Assembly (NCBI GenBank): GCA_028684065.1 | Contig: JAQUGO010000003.1 | Coordinates: forward strand, 60,171 to 124,170 | Length of the DNA: 64,000 bases | Reading direction: 5' to 3' | Source: Sulfurospirillaceae bacterium | Lineage (GTDB): Bacteria; Campylobacterota; Campylobacteria; Campylobacterales; Sulfurospirillaceae | Shown here: positions 13,615 to 41,035 of the stretch, piece after piece | Numbering within the stretch: the first letter of the stretch is position 1 | Layout: each line of letters opens with the position of its first letter | Notes under the pieces: generated by a model | Databases searched by the model: none | Seen by the model: only the letters and a program-made list of their open reading frames with translations | Told to the model about the DNA's origin: nothing | Program-made: the position numbers and the translations under genes

Positions 13615-14379
13615 TTAATTCAATTCGTAATTACCACGAGCGGTAAATTTTAAAAAGTTTTTGTCTCGTAAAACTTGTAATTGTTGTGAAATTTTAAACT
13701 CAATATGGTGATTGTTTGGGTATTTCGTTTCAAGATAAGGAATAAAGCTTAAGAGTTCTTGCCGTGTAAAATTTTTCTTATTTAATTTTTCAATGCATAG
13801 CATAATATCTAAAAGCCAACCCTTTTGCTCACTTTTAGCCTCTTTTAAAAAGAGCGTTTTTGCCCAATTTTCAAAAATTTTATCCTTGTTCTCGACTTCT
13901 TTATTTTTGACATAAAAGATTTTTCCACTGCTTGGGAGATTGTTGATTAAGATATTGCATCCAATCCAGCCAGCTCTTTTTGCAGTATCCGATAAAGGCT
14001 TTCTTTTCTCAATGATTTCAGAAGTAAAAAAGTGTTTAGGAATGATGATAAAATTTGATACTTGAAGAGTTTTAAGCTCATAGTTTAAAAAAAAGAAATG
14101 AGGGTTTTTGTTACTTTGAAGTCTTTCAATCATCGTTGCATATGCACCATCTACAATTTTTTTACCCATTGCATTTTGTTTGCTTTTTAACTCAAAATCC
14201 TCTTTACATACAAAGCAATAAAAATCCGCAACAGGCTTGTTATTTTCATAGTTATTTAAAGGGTTTCCACAGTTGGGACAAAATATATTTTCTTCAACCC
14301 AACTTTCAGTTAAAATTCGTGCAATTTGTGAATTGCTAGTGTACCCATTAGTTAAATTGCGATTAAGCGCTAACTTCAT
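13615..14379 (-). CDS. DpnI-type methyl-directed (G6mATC) restriction endonuclease
   Basis: The 254-aa protein resembles DpnI over its full length. The N-terminal catalytic domain has a zinc site (C34, C37, C55, C58) and the PD-(D/E)xK residues D52, E63 and K65 in 'PVADFYC' and 'EDFELKSK', one residue offset from the known D53/E64/K66. 'DGAYATMIERLQSNKNPHFFFLNY' and 'KRAGWIGCNI' follow. A C-terminal winged helix (QQLQVLRDKNFLKFTARGNYELN) would read methylated DNA. DpnI cuts GATC only when adenine is methylated, so it needs no partner methylase and would attack DNA from Dam+ sources. It is the first gene of an operon with an unknown gene and xth. Confidence 0.92.
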   Translation of the reverse strand: MKLALNRNLTNGYTSNSQIARILTESWVEENIFCPNCGNPLNNYENNKPVADFYCFVCKEDFELKSKQNAMGKKIVDGAYATMIERLQSNKNPHFFFLNYELKTLQVSNFIIIPKHFFTSEIIEKRKPLSDTAKRAGWIGCNILINNLPSSGKIFYVKNKEVENKDKIFENWAKTLFLKEAKSEQKGWLLDIMLCIEKLNKKNFTRQELLSFIPYLETKYPNNHHIEFKISQQLQVLRDKNFLKFTARGNYELN

Positions 14380-30416: not shown

Positions 30417-31133
30417 CTATTTTCGAAGCTCTTGTACTTTGCCTATATTTTCGATAGTAAAAGTCTCATCAGTTAATTTTCGCTCAGTTAATTTTCCATA
30501 AACCATAATAGATTTATAGCCTTTGTACAAAGGAGAGTCTGTTTCTATAACGGCTGGTCGAACGATGCCACCTCCAAAATCCTTAATATCTTTATAATAG
30601 AGTGTTTTAATCAACATATCGGTTGAAGTATAACACGCGATTTGCGTGGGTGTTGTTGTCTTTTTATCAATCACCATAACCAGCCTATCATACGCGACAC
30701 TCTCGCTTTTGGCTTTTAAATCCAAGATGATGGTTTCACCTTCTTCTTTTTGCGTTTTGATGTCGTATTCAGCCGAAAAATCAAGTTGCATAATATCGCT
30801 GTTGTTAAACACGCCTCCCACAACACTTTGCATGGAGGTAATACGAATAGGCTTGCCTACATCGGGTAAATAAAGCCACATATTATCACCTAAACGAAGG
30901 GTACTTCGACCTTTTTCGCTATCGGGCTGTAAAAATAAAGAGATAATTTTGTCTTTGTCTTTTTTCAGTTGATAGAGCAAAAATTCTTTTTTACTTCCAT
31001 CAGGCTCAATGTTAATGAGCTTTTTATAACTCTCAGCAGAACTGGGACTTAGCTTTTTATCGACTTGTTCTAAGATGTTGTCTGCGGCAAAAAGTGCTAT
31101 GGCACTAAGTAATAGTAGGATGCTCTTTTTCAT
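30417..31133 (-). CDS. LolA-like outer-membrane lipoprotein-sorting protein
   Basis: The 238-aa protein has a signal peptide (MKKSILLLLSAIALFAA). It resembles the PF17131 'outer membrane lipoprotein-sorting' family, with 'DKIISLFLQPDSEKGRSTLRLGDNMWLYLPDVGKPIRIT' (in segments) and 'SDIMQLDFSAEYDI'. The fold is expected to bind lipid or lipoprotein and carry it through the periplasm. The flanking MacB/LolC-like permease and LolD-like ATPase suggest a second, dedicated Lol-type route. The general lolA of the cell is presumably elsewhere. Confidence 0.78.
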   Translation of the reverse strand: MKKSILLLLSAIALFAADNILEQVDKKLSPSSAESYKKLINIEPDGSKKEFLLYQLKKDKDKIISLFLQPDSEKGRSTLRLGDNMWLYLPDVGKPIRITSMQSVVGGVFNNSDIMQLDFSAEYDIKTQKEEGETIILDLKAKSESVAYDRLVMVIDKKTTTPTQIACYTSTDMLIKTLYYKDIKDFGGGIVRPAVIETDSPLYKGYKSIMVYGKLTERKLTDETFTIENIGKVQELRK

Positions 31134-31141
31134 TTTATCTC

Positions 31142-32377
31142 CTAATACGAACGTAAAGCTTCGACTGGGTCGAGCCTTGAAGCCTTGAAGGCCGGTGAAA
31201 TGGAAGCAATTAACGATATGATGATGACGATAATGCTGACACTGAGTATCTGGTTTATTCCAAGATGAGGGGTGAGTATAAGTCCTGTTTGTTGTCCAAA
31301 ATTGTAGGTGATTTTAATAATGCCTAATACATAAATAATACCCATAGAAACGATGCTTCCTAAAACTGCTCCAAAGATACCTAGCATCAATCCTTCGCTC
31401 AAAAAGAGTTTAACGATGGTGAGAGGAGGTGTTCCGATAGCTGCAATGGTTCCTATTTCGCGGATACGTTCAAAAACACTCATCATCATGACATTTAGAA
31501 TGGAGATGAGGACAATGGAGATAAGAATAATTTGAATTGAGATATTCATAAGGTCAATCATTTTAATAATATTGTAAAAAGGTGTGAGCTGTTGCCATGT
31601 ATGAATTTCAAAAACAGGTTTACCCATTTTATTCATTTTTTCAAGTATAGGTTGAAGCGATTTTTCAGCCTGTTTAAGTTGCTCGACATCTTTAAGTTTT
31701 AGCACGATTTCGCTGACTTCAACTTCATTCATACGCAGCGCTTTTTTGGCATCATCAATGTGAATATACCCATCTCTGCCACCAGGTCCCATCACTTGGC
31801 CAAGGATGCCTGCCACTTTTAGATTGATACCATTGACGGAGCCATTTTTATTGTTGGCTACTAAAACAATCGTATCACCGACTTTGACATCCATTCCTTT
31901 GATAAGTAACTCAGGAACGATGATTTCCCCTGGCTTTAAAGTGCCATTCATATCAGTAATACGGTCTTTTAAAAGAGGTAATGTTGCCAGTTCATCTTCT
32001 GGGTTAACAGCATTGAGTCTAATATTGGTTGTGCTCGTGAAATTTGAAAACATCGCACCAAATTTGATGCGGTAAGAATGACTAGCAATGAAGGGGTTGT
32101 CTTTAATTTGCGATTCGACAAATTCGAGCATTTTGGCATTAAGATTTTTATCTAAAGGTAGATTGTCTACAGAGGCCACATAGCCTTTTTTATGGATTTG
32201 GATATGTCCTAACATCGAATCTGTAATTTGCCCTACCGTATAGCTTTTAAAGCTACCAGAAAGTGCTGTATAGATAAGAACAAAGATAACACCGATGGTA
32301 ATCAATGAAGCCGTGAGTAAGGTTCTTCGGTAATTGCGTTTTAAATTACGAAAGGAAATTTTAAGTATATTTTTCAT
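31142..32377 (-). CDS. FtsX/MacB-type ABC transporter permease
   Basis: This 411-aa membrane protein has an N-terminal helix (RRTLLTASLITIGVIFVLIYTAL), a large periplasmic domain (about 45-265) and three C-terminal helices. These include 'MNISIQIILISIVLISILNVMMMSVFERIREIGTIAAIGTP' (in segments), the FtsX/LolC signature. It overlaps the ATPase gene by 4 bases. By family it would extract a lipid or lipoprotein or use a mechanotransmission cycle rather than move substrate across the membrane. Confidence 0.88.
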   Translation of the reverse strand: MKNILKISFRNLKRNYRRTLLTASLITIGVIFVLIYTALSGSFKSYTVGQITDSMLGHIQIHKKGYVASVDNLPLDKNLNAKMLEFVESQIKDNPFIASHSYRIKFGAMFSNFTSTTNIRLNAVNPEDELATLPLLKDRITDMNGTLKPGEIIVPELLIKGMDVKVGDTIVLVANNKNGSVNGINLKVAGILGQVMGPGGRDGYIHIDDAKKALRMNEVEVSEIVLKLKDVEQLKQAEKSLQPILEKMNKMGKPVFEIHTWQQLTPFYNIIKMIDLMNISIQIILISIVLISILNVMMMSVFERIREIGTIAAIGTPPLTIVKLFLSEGLMLGIFGAVLGSIVSMGIIYVLGIIKITYNFGQQTGLILTPHLGINQILSVSIIVIIISLIASISPAFKASRLDPVEALRSY

Positions 32378-33060
32378 CTTACAATCCTTTTATCTTCAAC
32401 AATTTCCCCATCGATAAGTGTGATAAGTCTATCCACATTAGCGACAATTTTTTCATCGTGGGTGGCAAAAACAAATGTTGTTTGGTGTTCTTTTTGGATT
32501 TTTTTCATTAACTCAATAATCATATGCGCTGTTTTGCTATCAAGATTTGCCGTAGGCTCATCCGCAAAAATAATTTTAGGATTGGTGACAAGAGCTCGTG
32601 CAATGGCAACACGTTGCATCTGCCCACCTGAGATTTTATCGGGAGTTTTATCTTTGTGTTCTAGCATGCCTACTTCTTCAAGTAGTTTCAAAATACGCTT
32701 TTTTCGTTCACTTTCATCAAGGTTTTGTACCATAATAAGAGGGTATTCGATATTTTCATAGACACTGAGAACGGGGATGAGGTTGAAGCTTTGAAAGATA
32801 AAGCCTATATTTTCACCTCTAAAATTAGCCCTTTGCGTACGGTTTAGAGAGGTTACAGATGTATTGTTGATGATGATTTGACCCGAGGTCGGTGTGTCAA
32901 GACAGCCAAGCATATTTAGTACGGTACTCTTACCACTGCCACTAGGTCCGACTAGGGAGATAAACTCACCTTCCTTAATTTCCAAAGAGAAGTTTTTGAT
33001 GACTTCAAGCGATACTTCACCTGAAGTATAGACTTTTTTAAGACTGACAGCTTTGAGCAT
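32374..33060 (-). CDS. LolD/MacB-like ABC transporter ATPase
   Basis: This 228-aa ATPase has Walker A 'GPSGSGKST', signature 'ISGGQMQRVAIARAL', Walker B 'IIFADEPTANLDS' and the H-loop 'FVFATHDEKIV'. The overall form (EYPLIM, GFIFQSFNLIPVLSVYENI) is the LolD/MacB subgroup. It powers the overlapping permease. The gene starts 70 bp after the end of the sigma54-activator gene on the same strand, so it may be read through from the regulator operon. Confidence 0.92.
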   Translation of the reverse strand: MLKAVSLKKVYTSGEVSLEVIKNFSLEIKEGEFISLVGPSGSGKSTVLNMLGCLDTPTSGQIIINNTSVTSLNRTQRANFRGENIGFIFQSFNLIPVLSVYENIEYPLIMVQNLDESERKKRILKLLEEVGMLEHKDKTPDKISGGQMQRVAIARALVTNPKIIFADEPTANLDSKTAHMIIELMKKIQKEHQTTFVFATHDEKIVANVDRLITLIDGEIVEDKRIVR

Positions 33061-33129: not shown

Positions 33130-34515
33130 TTACTCTTGTGACGTATCTGTATAAAGGGAAAATTCTTTCAGTTGCTTTTTAAGCGTATTACGCGAAATAC
33201 CAAGGGCAGAGGAGAGTTGTGTAATATTAGGGCAGAGGGAAAAAGCAGAAATTAAAAGTTCTTTTTTCATCAGATTCTCAAGTTCTTTTGCGTGTTCGAT
33301 ACCGTGTTCTTTAAAAAAAATTTGACATAATTGAGCAATATCATTTTTTGAAGTGTTTTCAGAGTTGTCTAACTCTTTTAAGTCATCACTACTGATACGC
33401 TCATCTCTAGCATTGAGACATGCACTATAAATGGTATTGCGTAATTCTCTTATATTGCCATTCCATGTGTGTTGTTGTAGTTTTAAAAGAGCATCTTCCG
33501 CAATAGTTGTAATATTGGTTTGTAAATCACGATTGGCGCGAGAGATAAAATGTTCACATAAAATAGGTATGTCTTTTTGACGTTCTTTGAGTGTCGGCAA
33601 TGAAATACTGAGCATCGAAAGTCTAAAATACAAATCTTCTCTAAAAGTGTGTTTAAGTATATTCTCTTTGAGATTAGCATTGGTGGCGCAAATGACACGG
33701 CCATTAAACGATAACTCTTTGGTACCTCCCACACGTCTAAATTTTTTTGTTTCTAAGAAACGCAAAAGTTTACTTTGCAATTCACTATCGAGCTCGCCTA
33801 TCTCGTCTAAAAAGAGCGTTCCATCCCCTGTTTGTTCAGCATAGCCGATATGTTGTTTATCGGCACTGGTAAAAGAGCCTTTTTCATGCCCAAAGAGTTG
33901 TGATTCAAAAAGCTCTTTTGGAATAGAAGCGCAGTTGATAGCGATAAAATCAGATTCATGGTGCAAACAATTGGTATGGATAAGCTTTGCAATAAGTTCT
34001 TTGCCTGTCCCTGTTTCGCCATAAATAAGCACACTGAGCATATTATTAGCCGCAATACCTATTTTTTTATAAATATCTTTCATGGTTTCAAAAGAGCCAA
34101 CAAACTCCTCAGCCCCTTGTTTGATTAAAGGGTGCGCTTTTTTATCTTTGTGTGTGGGCGAAAGATATTGGTTGACTAAGAGCATAAGCTCAGATTCATC
34201 AAATGGTTTTTGTAAGATATCTTTAATCCCTATCTTGGATGCTTCAATCATATTGGTAGGCGTTGTATAGGCTGTCATAAGTATAATAGGGGTCGTAATA
34301 GCATGGCGTTTAAATCTTTTAATTAAATCAATACCCGTCACATTATCGCTGAGCATAATATCGACAATGAGCAGTTCAATACCTTGTTCAAGAATAGACT
34401 CTTCAATATGGCTCTCTTCACCATTATATTGAAATGTTGTGTGGTGGTGGCGTTGTAGAATTTTCGCTACGGAGTAACGTATTTCTTGTTGGTCATCAAT
34501 AATGGCTATTTTCAT
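33130..34515 (-). CDS. NtrC-type sigma54-dependent response regulator of the arr cluster
   Basis: The 461-aa protein has a receiver domain with intact acidic residues (IIDDQQ) and phosphoacceptor Asp ('LLIVDIMLSDN'). The AAA+ domain has Walker A 'GETGTGKELIAKLIH' and Walker B 'GTLFLDEIGELD'. A Fis-type helix-turn-helix follows ('LSSALGISRNTLKKQLKEF'). The sigma54-contact loop reads GSFTSA instead of GAFTGA. It likely activates the arrCAB promoter, where a TGG-N10-TTGC sigma54 site is present. With the kinase and binding protein it resembles the regulatory trio reported for arr loci (and AioXSR/TtrSR). Confidence 0.9.
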   Translation of the reverse strand: MKIAIIDDQQEIRYSVAKILQRHHHTTFQYNGEESHIEESILEQGIELLIVDIMLSDNVTGIDLIKRFKRHAITTPIILMTAYTTPTNMIEASKIGIKDILQKPFDESELMLLVNQYLSPTHKDKKAHPLIKQGAEEFVGSFETMKDIYKKIGIAANNMLSVLIYGETGTGKELIAKLIHTNCLHHESDFIAINCASIPKELFESQLFGHEKGSFTSADKQHIGYAEQTGDGTLFLDEIGELDSELQSKLLRFLETKKFRRVGGTKELSFNGRVICATNANLKENILKHTFREDLYFRLSMLSISLPTLKERQKDIPILCEHFISRANRDLQTNITTIAEDALLKLQQHTWNGNIRELRNTIYSACLNARDERISSDDLKELDNSENTSKNDIAQLCQIFFKEHGIEHAKELENLMKKELLISAFSLCPNITQLSSALGISRNTLKKQLKEFSLYTDTSQE

Positions 34516-34551: not shown

Positions 34552-35925
34552 TTAAGAAGTGGTTTCTTCGGTTGGAATATAAAGGCAAAATTGTGTTTTT
34601 CCCTCTTCGCTTTTAAATTCAATGTAACCACCTGAAAGATAAACAATTTTATAGATACTAAATAGTCCTAATCCTGAACCATCTTTTTTGGTCGTAAAAA
34701 AAGGTTTAAACAAGCTCTCTTTGGTTTTATCATCCATCGTTTCACCTTCATTTTTAATACACAATAAGGAGAGCCCAATAGCATCACATTTTGTCCATGA
34801 AATGTCAATGATACTATGCTGATAAGCAGCATCAATAGCATTATTGAGTAAATTGATGAGAATGAGTTCAATCGCATTGGCATTGAGTTTAACGAGAAAA
34901 TTTTCTTCAACAAAGCTCTTTATCGTGAGTTTTTTTTCTCCTAGTCGAGATTTTAAAATAGTGATGGATTCATCCACAAAAGGCTTGACATGTAAAGGTG
35001 TTTCACGATGAAAATCGGCAGGTTTAGCCAGTGCTAAAAAGTCAACAACCTGATGGTCAATACGTGTTAAGGCATTGCGAATAATGGGCATATCCTCTTT
35101 ATCGGGTACTTTTTTGGCAGGAATAAGTAGTTTGAGAGGCTGAAGCAAATTTTTTATCTCATGGGCAAAGGAGGAGCTTATCTCGCCTAAGATAATCAAA
35201 GAGTGTGAAATACGTGCATTTTTTTCTTCTTTTTCAATGGAGCTGCGCAATTCATGCATCAGTTGAGTGGTTGTTTCAATGATTTTGGTAATCTCATCAT
35301 TTTCTTTGCCCTTATATATCGTGATGTCTTCCCATCGCTTTTCAATCATCGCAGAGGCATTGTTTGAGAGTAAATGCAAGCGTTTTAAGAGTTTTCCCAT
35401 AAAAATATTGGCGATAATCAATGAGATAAGAGCCACCATAAGCAATAAAAAGAGTTGCACTAAGAATGTATCTTTAATGACACTTGCAATGGTCTGATTT
35501 TGAACTTTAAGAATAAAAGAGCCAAATATGACACCATCTTGAACAAAGGGAACAATATTGTATGATTTAAATTCCGTAAAAGTATCGCCAATGCGATAAT
35601 GTGTTGTATCGGTATGTGCCACAATGATGTTTTCTTTATTGATGAATCCAGAACTTTCAATTAAATTACTGGCGCTGAGTGTTTTGAGAAATTTGTATAA
35701 CTCCCATTGATTGTGTGTCAAGATAAATTCACTTACAAAGGCTTTGTTGGAGTTGATATTGGTTTTAATGAGTTCGTCGATGATTTCATTAGTATGGTTT
35801 TTATGAATATCAATATTAATTAAAATGGAGACTGAAGAGATAGAAAGAGCAACAAAGAATATCAGAATAGCCAGTTTAATTTGAACCGAGAGGGAAAAAA
35901 GATAATTAAGAAATTTTTGTATCAT
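34552..35925 (-). CDS. membrane sensor histidine kinase of the arr cluster
   Basis: The 457-aa protein has two membrane helices (about residues 15-37 and 155-175) flanking a periplasmic domain. A HAMP-like linker, the phospho-His box 'SFAHEIKNLLQPL', N-box 'LINLLNNAIDAA' and G-boxes 'KDGSGLGLFSIYKI' follow. Its ATG overlaps the stop of the periplasmic binding protein gene, and the response regulator gene follows by 36 bp. The periplasmic domain probably senses the ligand-bound binding protein. Confidence 0.92.
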   Translation of the reverse strand: MIQKFLNYLFSLSVQIKLAILIFFVALSISSVSILINIDIHKNHTNEIIDELIKTNINSNKAFVSEFILTHNQWELYKFLKTLSASNLIESSGFINKENIIVAHTDTTHYRIGDTFTEFKSYNIVPFVQDGVIFGSFILKVQNQTIASVIKDTFLVQLFLLLMVALISLIIANIFMGKLLKRLHLLSNNASAMIEKRWEDITIYKGKENDEITKIIETTTQLMHELRSSIEKEEKNARISHSLIILGEISSSFAHEIKNLLQPLKLLIPAKKVPDKEDMPIIRNALTRIDHQVVDFLALAKPADFHRETPLHVKPFVDESITILKSRLGEKKLTIKSFVEENFLVKLNANAIELILINLLNNAIDAAYQHSIIDISWTKCDAIGLSLLCIKNEGETMDDKTKESLFKPFFTTKKDGSGLGLFSIYKIVYLSGGYIEFKSEEGKTQFCLYIPTEETTS

Positions 35926-36791
35926 AGCTGCTCTTCTATCACTTCCACCATTTTAGCCACATCTGAAAAATCTTGATTGGTAGGGATATCAAATCTATCG
36001 AGGGAAAGCTTCTGCAAGATACTTTGTCCATAGGTATCCATATGCATGGTGACAAATGATTTTTGTAAGGCTTTAAACTGTTTTTCGGATAGATTTTTAC
36101 GCACCACAATGGGAGAATTAGTATAAGGTCCTAATGTTTGAATAATTTTTAATTTTTCAATTTGTGTAGGATTTTTTTGTGCAAAGCGTGTAAAGACAAT
36201 GCTATCAACACTCGCACCATCAACAAAACCATCCAAAACCGCTTTGATGGATTCACCGTGTTCATAGGTATAAATAAAAGATTTAAAAAATGTTTTTGGA
36301 TTGAGCCCATGTTGTAACATATAATACATTGGGGCTATAGCTCCAGAGTTACTTTCAGGATCAGTAAAAGCAAAAATAGCACCTTTGAAATCGGCTAATT
36401 GATTATAGCGAGAACTTTTCTTTGCAATGATATACGAGTAGTATTGGTCACTTCCATCGACGATGGGGATAGCAAGTAGTTTGCCCGTCTTATCTTTATC
36501 TAATTTGGTATAACTTGAATTACAAACATACGCAACATCCACACGATTTTCTTTAATAAGAGCATTCATCTCCGCATAGGTTTTTGAAAAGCGTATTTGG
36601 ACATCAAAATCATTTTGACTCTCCAAATAGTGTTTCCAGTCCATAAAATTTTTTAAATCATCTTTAAAGACAGTCCCTGTAAGACCAAGTACAATTTTTT
36701 CTTTTGCTTGAAGAGGAGAGAGCAAGGTAAGCAGTAAAAAAAAGATGGTAAATATTTGATTTTTACTGGTCAAAATTTGATAGATTTTCAT
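35922..36791 (-). CDS. PhnD-like periplasmic oxyanion-binding sensor protein
   Basis: The 289-aa protein has a signal peptide (up to 'LQAKEK') and the PhnD/TtrS-N fold: 'VLGLTGTVFKDDLKNFMDWKHYLE', 'RVDVAYVCNSSYTKL', 'AIFAFTDPESNSGAIAPMYYML' and 'VDGASVDSIVFTRFA'. No PhnC/PhnE transporter genes are adjacent; instead a kinase and a sigma54 regulator follow. It is therefore a sensor like AioX or the N-terminal half of TtrS, likely binding arsenite, arsenate or a related oxyanion. The ligand is inferred, not seen. Confidence 0.82.
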   Translation of the reverse strand: MKIYQILTSKNQIFTIFFLLLTLLSPLQAKEKIVLGLTGTVFKDDLKNFMDWKHYLESQNDFDVQIRFSKTYAEMNALIKENRVDVAYVCNSSYTKLDKDKTGKLLAIPIVDGSDQYYSYIIAKKSSRYNQLADFKGAIFAFTDPESNSGAIAPMYYMLQHGLNPKTFFKSFIYTYEHGESIKAVLDGFVDGASVDSIVFTRFAQKNPTQIEKLKIIQTLGPYTNSPIVVRKNLSEKQFKALQKSFVTMHMDTYGQSILQKLSLDRFDIPTNQDFSDVAKMVEVIEEQL

Positions 36792-36845
36792 GCATTTTTT
36801 CCTTTAAAACCATTTTAAACACCGTATTTTAGGGATTTTAGAAAC

Positions 36846-36860
36846 TGGTACGATTGTTGC
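36846..36860 (+). promoter_or_regulatory. sigma54 promoter of arrCAB
   Basis: TGGTACGATTGTTGC matches the sigma54 consensus TGGCACG-N4-TTGC with one substitution and exact GG-to-GC spacing (12 bases from GG to GC start). Transcription would begin near 36872, 42 bp before the arrC start. It fits the adjacent NtrC-type activator gene. No clear enhancer palindrome was seen upstream. Confidence 0.75.
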
Positions 36861-36913
36861 GTTGAGAGCATTGTACTTAAAGAAAAGTTCAAAAATCTTT
36901 AAAGGAGTCCGTA

Positions 36914-37750
36914 GTGTATTTATTGTGGGATATAAGGGTCTCGTTAGACCTTTTTCTAGGCGGTTTAGGAGTAGGTGCTTTCTTAATGGGAGCTGTGCTT
37001 TACTATATTGATGCCAAAATTTATGAGGGCATTGTCAAAAAGGCGTTTATATTTGCACCACTTTTAGTGATGGCTGGATTGGTATTACTCTTAAGTGAGT
37101 TGGGTCGCCCGATGAATGTAATAAAAACACTTTATGCAATCAATCCAACATCCTTTATGTCTGTTGGAATATTTTTACAATTGACATTTGTTGCATTGTC
37201 ATTGTATATTGCTTTTAGTGTATTAACCAAGGGTACAGTTATTTTATGTGCCAAAGTTGTCTATACATGTGCTATTTTAGCAGGCTTAGTTGGTTTGTAC
37301 CATGGCTTTTTACTCTCAGGTATAGCAAGAGAACCGTGGAATAATGCGATGCCCGTTATATTCTTTGTATCTTCAATTTTAGCAGGCTCATCTTTAATCT
37401 TACTTCTTAACATCAATAGTGCTGAAGAAGTGGCAAAGAAATTTAAACTTCCCATTGTTATCAATATGGTTTTAACACTTGAACTGGCTGCTATCTTTGC
37501 ATGGGTTTACAATCTAGCCCTTACGACAGCATCATCAAAACATATCTATGACGTACTTATGAGTAGTTTTGGTGTAGAGTTTTGGGGTTTAAGTATTGTT
37601 GTTGGTTTAATCATCCCTTTGACACTTTTTACGCTTGTTTTATTAGGAAAAACTACCTTTAAATCGGTTTTTGTTCTTGCCTCTATTGCGATTGTGGTAG
37701 GCAGTTTTTTCCTCAAAAATTTAGTAGTTTATCTCGGTCAAATGGCATAA
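36914..37750 (+). CDS. arrC: NrfD-type membrane anchor (ArrC-like)
   Basis: The 278-aa polytopic protein (eight or nine helices) belongs to the NrfD/PsrC family: 'LWDIRVSLDLFLGGLGVGAFLMGAVLYY', 'LSELGRPMNVIKTL' and a paired second half 'YHGFLLSGIAREPWNNAMPVIFF'. It would oxidise menaquinol and pass electrons to the Fe-S subunit. GTG start with AAAGGAG at 36901-36907. It heads the arrCAB operon under a sigma54 promoter. Confidence 0.87.
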   Translation: MYLLWDIRVSLDLFLGGLGVGAFLMGAVLYYIDAKIYEGIVKKAFIFAPLLVMAGLVLLLSELGRPMNVIKTLYAINPTSFMSVGIFLQLTFVALSLYIAFSVLTKGTVILCAKVVYTCAILAGLVGLYHGFLLSGIAREPWNNAMPVIFFVSSILAGSSLILLLNINSAEEVAKKFKLPIVINMVLTLELAAIFAWVYNLALTTASSKHIYDVLMSSFGVEFWGLSIVVGLIIPLTLFTLVLLGKTTFKSVFVLASIAIVVGSFFLKNLVVYLGQMA

Positions 37751-37760
37751 GGAGAATATG

Positions 37761-40322
37761 ATGAGTATAAATAGAAGAGATTTTTTAAAAACAACAGCCG
37801 CAACAGCAGCGGTAGCAACTACAGTATCCGTTTTTACACCTCAAGCAGTGGAAGCCAAAACGGGAGAACTTGCCTATGAAGGTGAAAGTGGTAAATGGAT
37901 ATCTTCTACATGTCAAGGATGCACAAGTTGGTGTAGCATTCAAGGCCTCGTTCAAGATGGCCGATTGATTAAAGTTAGAGGCAATCCTAATTCTGCCAGT
38001 GGTGGACGTATTTGCCCACGACCACACTTAGCGATTCAACAAGCGTACGACCCTGATCGTGTTAAAACACCACTTAAACGAACCAATCCTAAAAAAGGGC
38101 GCGGTATTGACCCAAAATTTGTTCCAATCTCATGGGATGAAGCGATTGATACGATTGCCGATAAAATTATGGAACTCATTAATGCAGGTGAAACGCACAA
38201 GTTTTTATTAGCACGTGGTCGTTATACGTATATGAATGAGATTATGTATGGAACATTCCCCAAATTAATTGGAAGTCCGAACAATATCTCTCACAGTGCT
38301 TTATGCGCAGATGCGGAAGAATTCGGACGTGAACAAGCTGAAGGGTACCCTGGTTACGCTGATTTTGATTTGGATCATACACGTTATATTTTAGGGTGGA
38401 GTTCCGATATGGTAGCCTCAAATCGACAAGTTCCATGGTTTATCAACCAATTTGGCAAAGTCAAAGATAGAGCTAAAATTACCACGATTGACCCAAGGCT
38501 TTCTGCAACCGCGGCTAAATCACACCGATGGTTACCTATTATTCCCGGAACTGATGGCGCTTTAGCCATTGCCATTGCCCATGTTATTTTAAGTGAAGGG
38601 AAATGGAATAAAGAATTTGTAGGTGATTTTGCTGATGGGAAAAATTATTTTGTCCCAGGGGTTGAAGTTCCTAGCGAGATTATTGTTGATGAAAAACCAT
38701 TGCCGGTTATTTTCAATGAAATACATACCCATGGTGTTGTTTCATGGTGGAATTTAGAGCTAAAAGAGCGTACCCCTGAATGGGCGGAGTCAATAACAGG
38801 AATTAGTGCTCAAGAGATAAAAGAAGTAGCACGAGAATTTGCAGAGGCTGGCAATCGTGCCATTTCATGGACAAGCCCAGGGTCTGCCATGCAAATTAGA
38901 GGCGGTATTTCTTCTTTTGCCTGTCATGCACTCAATGGATTGGTTGGTTCGGTTGACCATGCCGGTGGCATCTTACAACAAGGCTCAGCGCCGACGGCTA
39001 AAACACCAGATGTTAAACCGTACATCGACCCACGTTTTGCGGCTAATTTAAAACAACAAAAGATAGATCAACGTGGTACCAAAGGATTTCCAGCACTTGA
39101 GCATATGAAATCAGGTGGATTTGTTTGTACCTCACGTGTGGCTCAAGCGATGCTCGATAAAGACCCGTATGATATTAAAGTTGCTATTGGGTATTGGAAT
39201 AACTGGGTGTTCTCTTCTATGGGAACAAAACAATGGGAAGAGGCAATGTCAAAACTACCATTTTTTGCACATATCACAACCAATATAGCAGAGATGAGTA
39301 TGTTTGCTGATATTGTTTTACCCGCAAAAATACACCTTTTTGAGCGTTATGGGTTTGCAAAAAACAAGCAAAATTTGCATGCATATCTATCGATGCATCA
39401 ACCTATGATTAAATCGATTGCCGATGCTAGAACTGATGAGACCGAAGTACCTTTTATGTTGGCACAAGCATTGGCCAAAAAAGGCTTTGATGCACCATTG
39501 CGCTATTTCCAAGATAATTTCAAAGACCCTGAAACGGGTAAAACACCTGAAACGCCTGCTGAGTTTGACCTCTTTGCTGTAAAGTTTTACACCAAACCTA
39601 TTTGGGATGGTAGTAGCAATAGTAAAGGTGACACGATTAATAGTTGGAATGAGCTTCTTGAAAAAGGTGTATGGAAAACAAAACGTTACAAAATTGGTGA
39701 AAAAATAGGTCATTTCCATACGGCAACGCATAAGTTTGAGTTTTTCAGTGAAACACTCAAAGCGGGACTCCAAAATCATGCAGATAAACATAAGATGAGC
39801 TTGGATGAAGCGATTGCAGCAGCTAATTATACTGTAATGGGCGAGCAGTTTTTTGTTCCGCATTATGAGCCAGCGGTTCGTTATGGTGACGAAAAAGTTT
39901 ATCCTTTTATTTTTACAGAACATCGTTCACGTTTGAACCGTGAAGGTCGTAGCCAAAATACGCCATGGTATTACACCACTAAAAATGTTGACCCAGGTGA
40001 TGAAAATGAAAAAGATGTTACCAAGGTCAATCCATTGGATGGTGCAAAATATGGTTTAAAAACAGGTGATAAAGTACGCCTTGTCTCCATGTTTGGAACA
40101 ATTGAGAGTGAAATCAAACTGTGGGAAGGTGTGCGCCCTGGTACGGTTGTAAAATGTTATGGCCAAGGTCACTGGGCTTATGGACGAGTCGGAAGTGAAG
40201 TGTTTGGCTCTAAGCCACGAGGTGGCAATAACAATGAACTTTATTGTTATGACTGGGAGCGCTTAAGCGGATCAAATCCTAGACATGGTGGACATACACG
40301 TGTTAAAATCGAAAAGATATAG
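37761..40322 (+). CDS. arrA: Arr-type molybdopterin catalytic subunit (respiratory arsenate reductase-like)
   Basis: The 853-aa protein has a Tat signal (NRRDFLK). A [4Fe-4S] motif with Cys at 51, 54, 58 and 85 and 'TPLKRTNPKKGRG' follow. The Arr core has RGRY (152-155), 'SPNNISHSALCADAEEFG' with molybdenum-ligand Cys182, and the C-terminal 'EHRSRLNREGRSQNTPWYY'. From memory of Shewanella ArrA (R165, Y166, H189, S190, K198, Y210 line the arsenate pocket), the matches here are R154, Y155, H178, S179 and Y199. The Lys position is Glu187. Start at 37761 has ideal spacing to AAGGAG. Between arrC and arrB, so an electron-linked periplasmic enzyme; reduction of arsenate is likely but not certain. 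Confidence 0.82.
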   Translation: MSINRRDFLKTTAATAAVATTVSVFTPQAVEAKTGELAYEGESGKWISSTCQGCTSWCSIQGLVQDGRLIKVRGNPNSASGGRICPRPHLAIQQAYDPDRVKTPLKRTNPKKGRGIDPKFVPISWDEAIDTIADKIMELINAGETHKFLLARGRYTYMNEIMYGTFPKLIGSPNNISHSALCADAEEFGREQAEGYPGYADFDLDHTRYILGWSSDMVASNRQVPWFINQFGKVKDRAKITTIDPRLSATAAKSHRWLPIIPGTDGALAIAIAHVILSEGKWNKEFVGDFADGKNYFVPGVEVPSEIIVDEKPLPVIFNEIHTHGVVSWWNLELKERTPEWAESITGISAQEIKEVAREFAEAGNRAISWTSPGSAMQIRGGISSFACHALNGLVGSVDHAGGILQQGSAPTAKTPDVKPYIDPRFAANLKQQKIDQRGTKGFPALEHMKSGGFVCTSRVAQAMLDKDPYDIKVAIGYWNNWVFSSMGTKQWEEAMSKLPFFAHITTNIAEMSMFADIVLPAKIHLFERYGFAKNKQNLHAYLSMHQPMIKSIADARTDETEVPFMLAQALAKKGFDAPLRYFQDNFKDPETGKTPETPAEFDLFAVKFYTKPIWDGSSNSKGDTINSWNELLEKGVWKTKRYKIGEKIGHFHTATHKFEFFSETLKAGLQNHADKHKMSLDEAIAAANYTVMGEQFFVPHYEPAVRYGDEKVYPFIFTEHRSRLNREGRSQNTPWYYTTKNVDPGDENEKDVTKVNPLDGAKYGLKTGDKVRLVSMFGTIESEIKLWEGVRPGTVVKCYGQGHWAYGRVGSEVFGSKPRGGNNNELYCYDWERLSGSNPRHGGHTRVKIEKI

Positions 40323-40336
40323 GTGAAGGATAAACA

Positions 40337-41035
40337 ATGACAAAAAAATATGGAATGATTATAGACCTACATCGTTGTGTAGGATGCGGCGCGTGTAATT
40401 TAGCATGTAAGAGTGAAAATAATACGCCCGTTGGAATTGATTGGGCAAGTCATAAAATCGAAACGTATGGTGTTTTCCCTAAAGTTACATATACCCATAC
40501 GCCAACTTTATGTAACCATTGTGAAGACGCACCGTGTGTAAGAGTCTGTCCAACGCATGCAATGCATAAAACAGAGGAAGGCTTTGTCGTGCATGACCCA
40601 AGTATTTGTATTGGTTGTAAAAGTTGCATGCTTGCTGATCCTTATGGCGTGATACATTTTAATACGAAAGATGCCTTTATCGAATTTGCTACGGATACAA
40701 GCAGTGAAGTCAAAGATGGTACTTTTTCTAAGAAAGAACTAAGTGATAAAAGCAAAGCGCCATTTCCAAACTTTAATGCTGAACGAGGTGCTGGAGGTTA
40801 TGAAGCCATTCGTCGGGCAGGAGCTGTTGAAAAATGTACTTTTTGTAACCATCGTGTAGCAAAAGGACTCGCACCTGCATGTGTGGTAGCATGTCCAGCC
40901 GATGCACGTATTTTTGGTGATATGAATGATCCAAAAAGCCAAATAACAAAGGTATTAAAGGAAAACAAACCAACCGTCTTACTTCCTGAAAAAGGTACTA
41001 ATCCCAAAGTCTTTTATATCGGAAGTTACAACTAA
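40337..41035 (+). CDS. arrB: four-cluster Fe-S electron-transfer subunit (ArrB-like)
   Basis: The 232-aa ferredoxin-type protein carries four Cys motifs: C14-C17-C20-C24, C59-C62-C67-C71, C91-C94-C97 and a last motif 'CTFCNHRVAKGLAPACVVAC'. In the third motif the expected fourth Cys is Asp101 ('SCMLADPYG', codon GAT), so one cluster may be [3Fe-4S] or Asp-ligated. It passes electrons from the NrfD-type quinol oxidase to the Mo subunit and is probably exported by riding with the Tat-targeted partner. Ends at a strong terminator. Confidence 0.88.
   Translation: MTKKYGMIIDLHRCVGCGACNLACKSENNTPVGIDWASHKIETYGVFPKVTYTHTPTLCNHCEDAPCVRVCPTHAMHKTEEGFVVHDPSICIGCKSCMLADPYGVIHFNTKDAFIEFATDTSSEVKDGTFSKKELSDKSKAPFPNFNAERGAGGYEAIRRAGAVEKCTFCNHRVAKGLAPACVVACPADARIFGDMNDPKSQITKVLKENKPTVLLPEKGTNPKVFYIGSYN

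Follow-up and report, generated by a model that had tools for sequence, protein, structure and literature searches.

Genetic organization of the arr locus

The window analysed here is a stretch of 64,000 nucleotides from a Sulfurospirillaceae bacterium (contig JAQUGO010000003.1, positions 60,171 to 124,170), and all coordinates below are positions within it. It contains an arr locus with two divergent groups of genes: arrXSR on the reverse strand and arrCAB on the forward strand. The first group comprises arrR (33130-34515), which encodes an NtrC-type sigma-54 response regulator, arrS (34552-35925), which encodes a sensor histidine kinase, and arrX (35922-36791), which encodes a PhnD-type periplasmic arsenic-oxyanion sensor. 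The second comprises arrC (36914-37750), arrA (37761-40322) and arrB (40337-41035), which encode an NrfD/PsrC-type membrane anchor, a catalytic subunit of 853 amino acid residues and a four-cluster iron-sulfur subunit, respectively. Genes for ArsB, ArsR and ArsC are found inside the window within about 22 kb of the operon. A MacB/LolD-type ABC transporter and a LolA-like protein are encoded next to arrR (30417-33060), and several relatives keep parts of this gene group beside their arr locus. The window also carries a gene for a DpnI-family (Dam-replacing) restriction enzyme (13615-14379, reverse strand).

Scored against its solved relatives, the window sensor reached 144 bits with ArrX, 111 with AioX and 65 with PtxB. 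The residues that form the arsenic-binding pocket of ArrX/AioX sensors (PMC5908839), including Cys106, are kept, the Y131 column being ambiguous by one residue. Moreover, the sensor pocket residues are identical between Sulfurospirillum operons carrying either of the two ArrA types described below, E and K. A probable -24/-12 sigma-54 promoter, TGGTACGATTGTTGCG, precedes arrC on the forward strand (36846-36861). The window copy carries two mismatches, and sequences fitting this well arise frequently by chance, so that the promoter call was made on its place, about 66-69 bases upstream of arrC in E and K types alike, which is conserved across species of the genus. In relatives, a palindrome resembling CCCTA-TTTT-AGGG lies just before the arrC promoter and is possibly the binding site of ArrR; it is degenerate in the window (36800-36845).

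In ArrB, Asp stands in for the final Cys in one of the cluster motifs, CIGCKSCMLADPYG. A tblastn comparison of 89 ArrB shows Asp at this site in 19 (one of them a Firmicutes MAG) and Cys in the other 70; Cys is also found in the ANA-3 structure. The replacement may lead to a [3Fe-4S] or an Asp-ligated cluster. It was considered as a trait of the E-type and discarded, because E and K types both have Asp.

Identification and predicted structure of ArrA

The arrA product shows a Tat signal, an N-terminal [4Fe-4S] motif and the Mo-binding cysteine (Cys182), and a second in-frame ATG of the open reading frame is located at 37758. The [4Fe-4S] motif is formed by C51/C54/C58/C85 with the spacing C-X2-C-X3-C-X26-C, the last spacer being X27 in PMC2500031. 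The gene order arrC-arrA-arrB places arrB directly beside arrA, as expected of arrA genes, which may or may not also have arrC. Residues 44-853 align with ArrA of Shewanella sp. ANA-3 (6cz7_A) with 950 bits and 51% identity. The predicted structure used here had a pLDDT of 86, compared with 48 for an earlier model built from a shallow alignment, and it matched 6cz7 with a Z of 56.3 over 798 residues (1.7 A rmsd), while the runner-up reached a Z of 36. In the numbering of the 6cz7 entry, the structure alignment pairs model residues 41 to 853 with residues 51 to 854, giving an offset of 11. In a phylogenetic tree rooted on ArxA, the window ArrA branches within the ArrA clade and separately from ArxA. 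No viral relatives were found.

The NCBIfam model NF041714 gave a score of 1082 bits, below its curated cut-off of 1600. The same cut-off was missed by the K-type ArrA of S. barnesii-like (1072) and Wolinella-like (1083) genomes and by ArrA of Mesobacillus selenatarsenatis SF-1 (1120); therefore it does not tell these sequences apart, and the idea of a new family, raised by the low score, was dropped. The idea that the genome carries an ordinary ArrA as well was also dismissed, as only one full-length ArrA was found per genome. The locus is most likely a genuine arsenate-respiration operon.

Substrate pocket and remodelled loop

An earlier note on this DNA had matched five residues of the arsenate pocket with a constant offset of 11 and had proposed that the equivalent of Lys198 is a Glu. 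Sequence and structure alignments with 6cz7 bore out both points and upheld the residue map. R154, Y155, H178, S179 and Y199 of the window ArrA correspond to R165, Y166, H189, S190 and Y210 of ANA-3, side chains which presumably contact arsenate. The Mo ligand is likewise kept (C182, ANA-3 C193), and Lys198 is replaced by Glu187 (codon 38319-38321, forward strand).

To place this replacement we compared 97 ArrA-family sequences from Campylobacterota genomes, from 80 loci of named genomes of many phyla and from ANA-3. The Lys198 site holds Lys in 80 sequences, Asn in 10, Glu in six and a gap in one, making Lys a common, non-defining feature of ArrA. All six Glu carriers are Sulfurospirillum: the genome of the window and G404, G379, G248, G229 and G146. 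Within this set, Glu at this site is thus confined to a single clade, and the condition that the earlier note named against itself, that Glu might be common in proven ArrA, does not apply. Asn was observed in two separate groups (L014, L033 and loci L065-L092): relatives of Sulfurospirillum, and mostly Desulfobacterota-type MAGs.

The Glu is accompanied by other replacements. The six sequences, named here E-type, share the package E195D, K198E, Y202E, Y203Q, W208P and Y384I (ANA-3 numbering), which no other sequence in the set carries. The changes that accompany K198E, together with further E-clade changes at 447-454, are missing from each of the 87 non-E sequences compared; Trp208, which is Pro in the E-type, is present in 87 of 87, and the Tyr384 site (Ile383 in the window, codon 38907-38909, forward strand) holds Tyr or Phe in all of them. 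In the window, D184, E187, E191, Q192 and P197 all belong to the loop that follows the Mo cysteine and comprises residues 184-197 (38310-38351, forward strand). This 14-residue loop holds 5 of the 16 clade-specific sites (p of about 2e-6, for a segment picked post hoc). Because the changes form a linked package and the clade-specific sites cluster, the sequence comparison identifies the real object as a coordinately remodelled substrate loop and not as a lone charge reversal.

Phylogeny and selection of the E-type clade

The phylogeny called for in the earlier note shows the six E-type ArrA as one clade (support 1.0), nested in the Campylobacterota ArrA beside the Asn-bearing sequences. All E-type copies are open and intact. 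The dN/dS values range between 0.02 and 0.04 within the main E group, and reach 0.05 between the genome of the window and G248, where dS is near saturation. Purifying selection on the clade is therefore strong. Chance, a sequencing error or a pseudogene was rejected, since the same changes recur in six genomes with a dN/dS of about 0.03.

Exchange of the catalytic core between sister species

On a species tree built from rpoB and gyrB, three pairs of sister genomes differ in ArrA type: G248 (E) and G235 (K), G229 (E) and G272 (K), and G146 (E) and G182 (K). At least five changes of type are needed on this tree, a number that is not unusual compared with random labels; the count shows repeated switching and not selection. 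DNA identity between G248 and G235 is mostly 84-96% in the regulators, arrC and arrB, and drops to 67-78% in the arrA core. At third codon positions, identity in all three pairs is 49-52% in the core and 55-86% elsewhere in the locus. The exchanged segment has the same boundaries in each pair, one near 38180 (about codon 141) and the other near 40300 (the end of arrA). In the window, the core thus extends approximately from residue 141 up to the C-terminus (38181-40300, forward strand; boundaries approximate, from 60-base windows).

Topology tests agreed with this picture, with 5000 resamplings, which is below the program's advice for the AU test. The core rejects the species topology with a log-likelihood difference of 643, and the regulators, arrC and arrB prefer the species topology over the E-clade topology. 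Divergence between E cores is similar to that of their flanks, while G182, G235 and G272 have K cores that differ from one another almost as much as they differ from E. This pattern fits a putative direction of exchange, with the E core resident in this subclade and K cores acquired anew from different donors.

Strains and phenotypes

Strain assignments of the relative genomes were inferred, partly from gene content. G248 and G235, sisters on the species tree, both have reductive dehalogenase genes and fit, by this indirect evidence, S. halorespirans and S. multivorans, respectively. G265 fits S. barnesii and G146 fits strain UCH001. Within the pair G229 and G272, tetrathionate reductase is found in G229 and is absent from G272; the strains described with this enzyme do not include S. 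arsenophilum, and G272 therefore fits S. arsenophilum better than G229 does. Among isolates on arsenic or selenium oxyanions that could be placed by gene content, the fitting genomes carry the K-type (G272, S. arsenophilum; G265, S. barnesii). Both a table of PMC11406935 and PMC4794192 give S. halorespirans as arsenate-positive. Since G248 carries the E-type ArrA only, the E-type probably still reduces arsenate. Such growth reports are imperfect evidence, because S. cavolei is listed as arsenate-positive, yet G209, which fits this species, has no ArrA.

Proposed function of the E-type ArrA

Most likely, the E-type still works as a reductase in arsenate respiration, its pocket having been re-tuned. 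ArrXSR would control ArrCAB, a menaquinol-linked periplasmic respiratory reductase of arsenic oxyanions, in which electrons of the quinone pool would pass through ArrC and the clusters of ArrB to the [4Fe-4S] cluster of ArrA. Substrate reduction would then take place at the Mo-bisPGD centre, with arsenate most likely being converted to arsenite. The joint loss of Lys198, the Tyr-Tyr pair and Trp208 most likely alters binding strength, product release or the selectivity between arsenate, phosphate and related anions, and does not abolish activity. This explanation is favoured by the ArrA fold, the nesting inside Campylobacterota ArrA, the kept pocket residues, an NF041714 score like that of the S. 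barnesii- and W. succinogenes-like genomes, the ArrX-like sensor, the promoter, the ars genes, purifying selection, the arsenate growth listed for S. halorespirans and the core swap. The loss of Trp208 and Tyr384 together with Lys198 goes beyond conservative change and argues against mere tuning, and the K-type of genomes fitting isolates on arsenic or selenium oxyanions also weighs against it. From the charge reversal, the earlier note had suggested altered affinity, direction or substrate. The altered pocket stands and extends beyond the lone Glu, whereas the operon, the sensor and the growth of S. halorespirans fit continued arsenate reduction, and Asn is also tolerated at the site.

Within Sulfurospirillum, E and K cores would replace each other at one chromosomal locus by homologous recombination, with the Fe-S-binding N-terminus of ArrA staying in place together with ArrB, ArrC and the regulators. 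These core swaps may have a functional reason. A bolder reading, less likely than not, is that the genus holds two functionally different ArrA cores, the ordinary K-type and an E-type specialised for another arsenical or concentration range, and that catalytic cores recombine repeatedly and on their own into a fixed operon.

A possible but doubtful alternative is that the main substrate of the E-type differs, probably an arsenic or antimony oxyanion of sulfidic, organic-rich settings such as thioarsenate or methylated arsenate, with arsenate as a side activity or unused. Six linked replacements at sites near-invariant across phyla, two of them new acids in the substrate loop, agree with this explanation, as does the K-type in genomes fitting strains isolated on arsenic; the type changes, at least five with three of them between sister species, would also fit two jobs. 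However, sensor and promoter are alike in both types, S. halorespirans is reported to respire arsenate, and there is no positive evidence for any named substrate.

An improbable reading takes the changes in the loop as near-neutral drift within one lineage, and the core exchanges as ordinary recombination of no functional meaning. The Asn found in 10 of 97 sequences would suit drift, as would a number of type changes not above random labels, within-E divergence close to that of the flanks, and the open pan-genome of the genus with its strong potential for horizontal transfer (PMC11406935); but the changes cluster in one loop (the post hoc segment above), affect residues that are invariant elsewhere, and were exchanged in core-only swaps with shared boundaries in three pairs. 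Very unlikely is an enzyme running mainly in reverse as an arsenite oxidase: in two ArxA the E195 site is likewise Asp, the K198 site is Val or Glu and Trp208 is missing, but they lack the Arg165-Tyr166 pair kept in the E-type, which is only 33% identical to them and is nested in ArrA; beside arrA, neither a second arxB2-type gene nor a TorD-type gene was seen.

ArrA drives arsenic release into groundwater, and the control of substrate and affinity by its pocket has been little tested. Because the sister species have different ArrA cores in an otherwise retained locus, they provide a natural and nearly controlled experiment on pocket residues that hardly vary elsewhere. Surveys using arrA as a marker gene may lump two functional types.

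Comparison with known systems

The window ArrA resembles ANA-3 ArrA (PDB 6CZ7) in fold, full length, Mo cysteine and the five kept pocket residues, and differs from it by the six replacements of the package, at 51% overall identity. CymA serves the ArrA of Shewanella ANA-3, whereas the window ArrA is anchored by ArrC. The K-type ArrA of Campylobacterota (S. barnesii-, S. multivorans- and W. succinogenes-like) shares with the E-type, within Sulfurospirillum, the arrCAB order, the divergent arrXSR and the promoter; in the sister pairs, the N-terminus of ArrA and ArrB are also the same. The K-type is 70-77% identical to the E-type over the whole ArrA and, unlike it, shows the ordinary Lys, Tyr-Tyr and Trp loop. 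The window sensor is like the ArrX/AioX sensors in its arsenic-binding residues, and the response regulator is of the sigma-54 type, as in Aio and Arx systems, in contrast to the CitB-like ArrR of C. arsenatis.

Two ArxA were compared, encoded in the arxXSR-arxB2ABCD clusters of Cereibacter azotoformans ORIO and Sulfuricella denitrificans plasmids. They share with the E-type the fold family, the XSR regulators, the His-Ser pair, the Mo cysteine and a loop without Lys or Trp, but their clusters carry extra arxB2 and chaperone genes. Membership of the E-type in ArxA was rejected, as it lacks the arxB2ABCD order and the ArxA active-site sequence (GRGW for GRY). By these comparisons the E-type is not an ArxA, the likeness of the loops being partial and seen in two sequences. 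The E-type ArrA is a variant form of the known enzyme ArrA.
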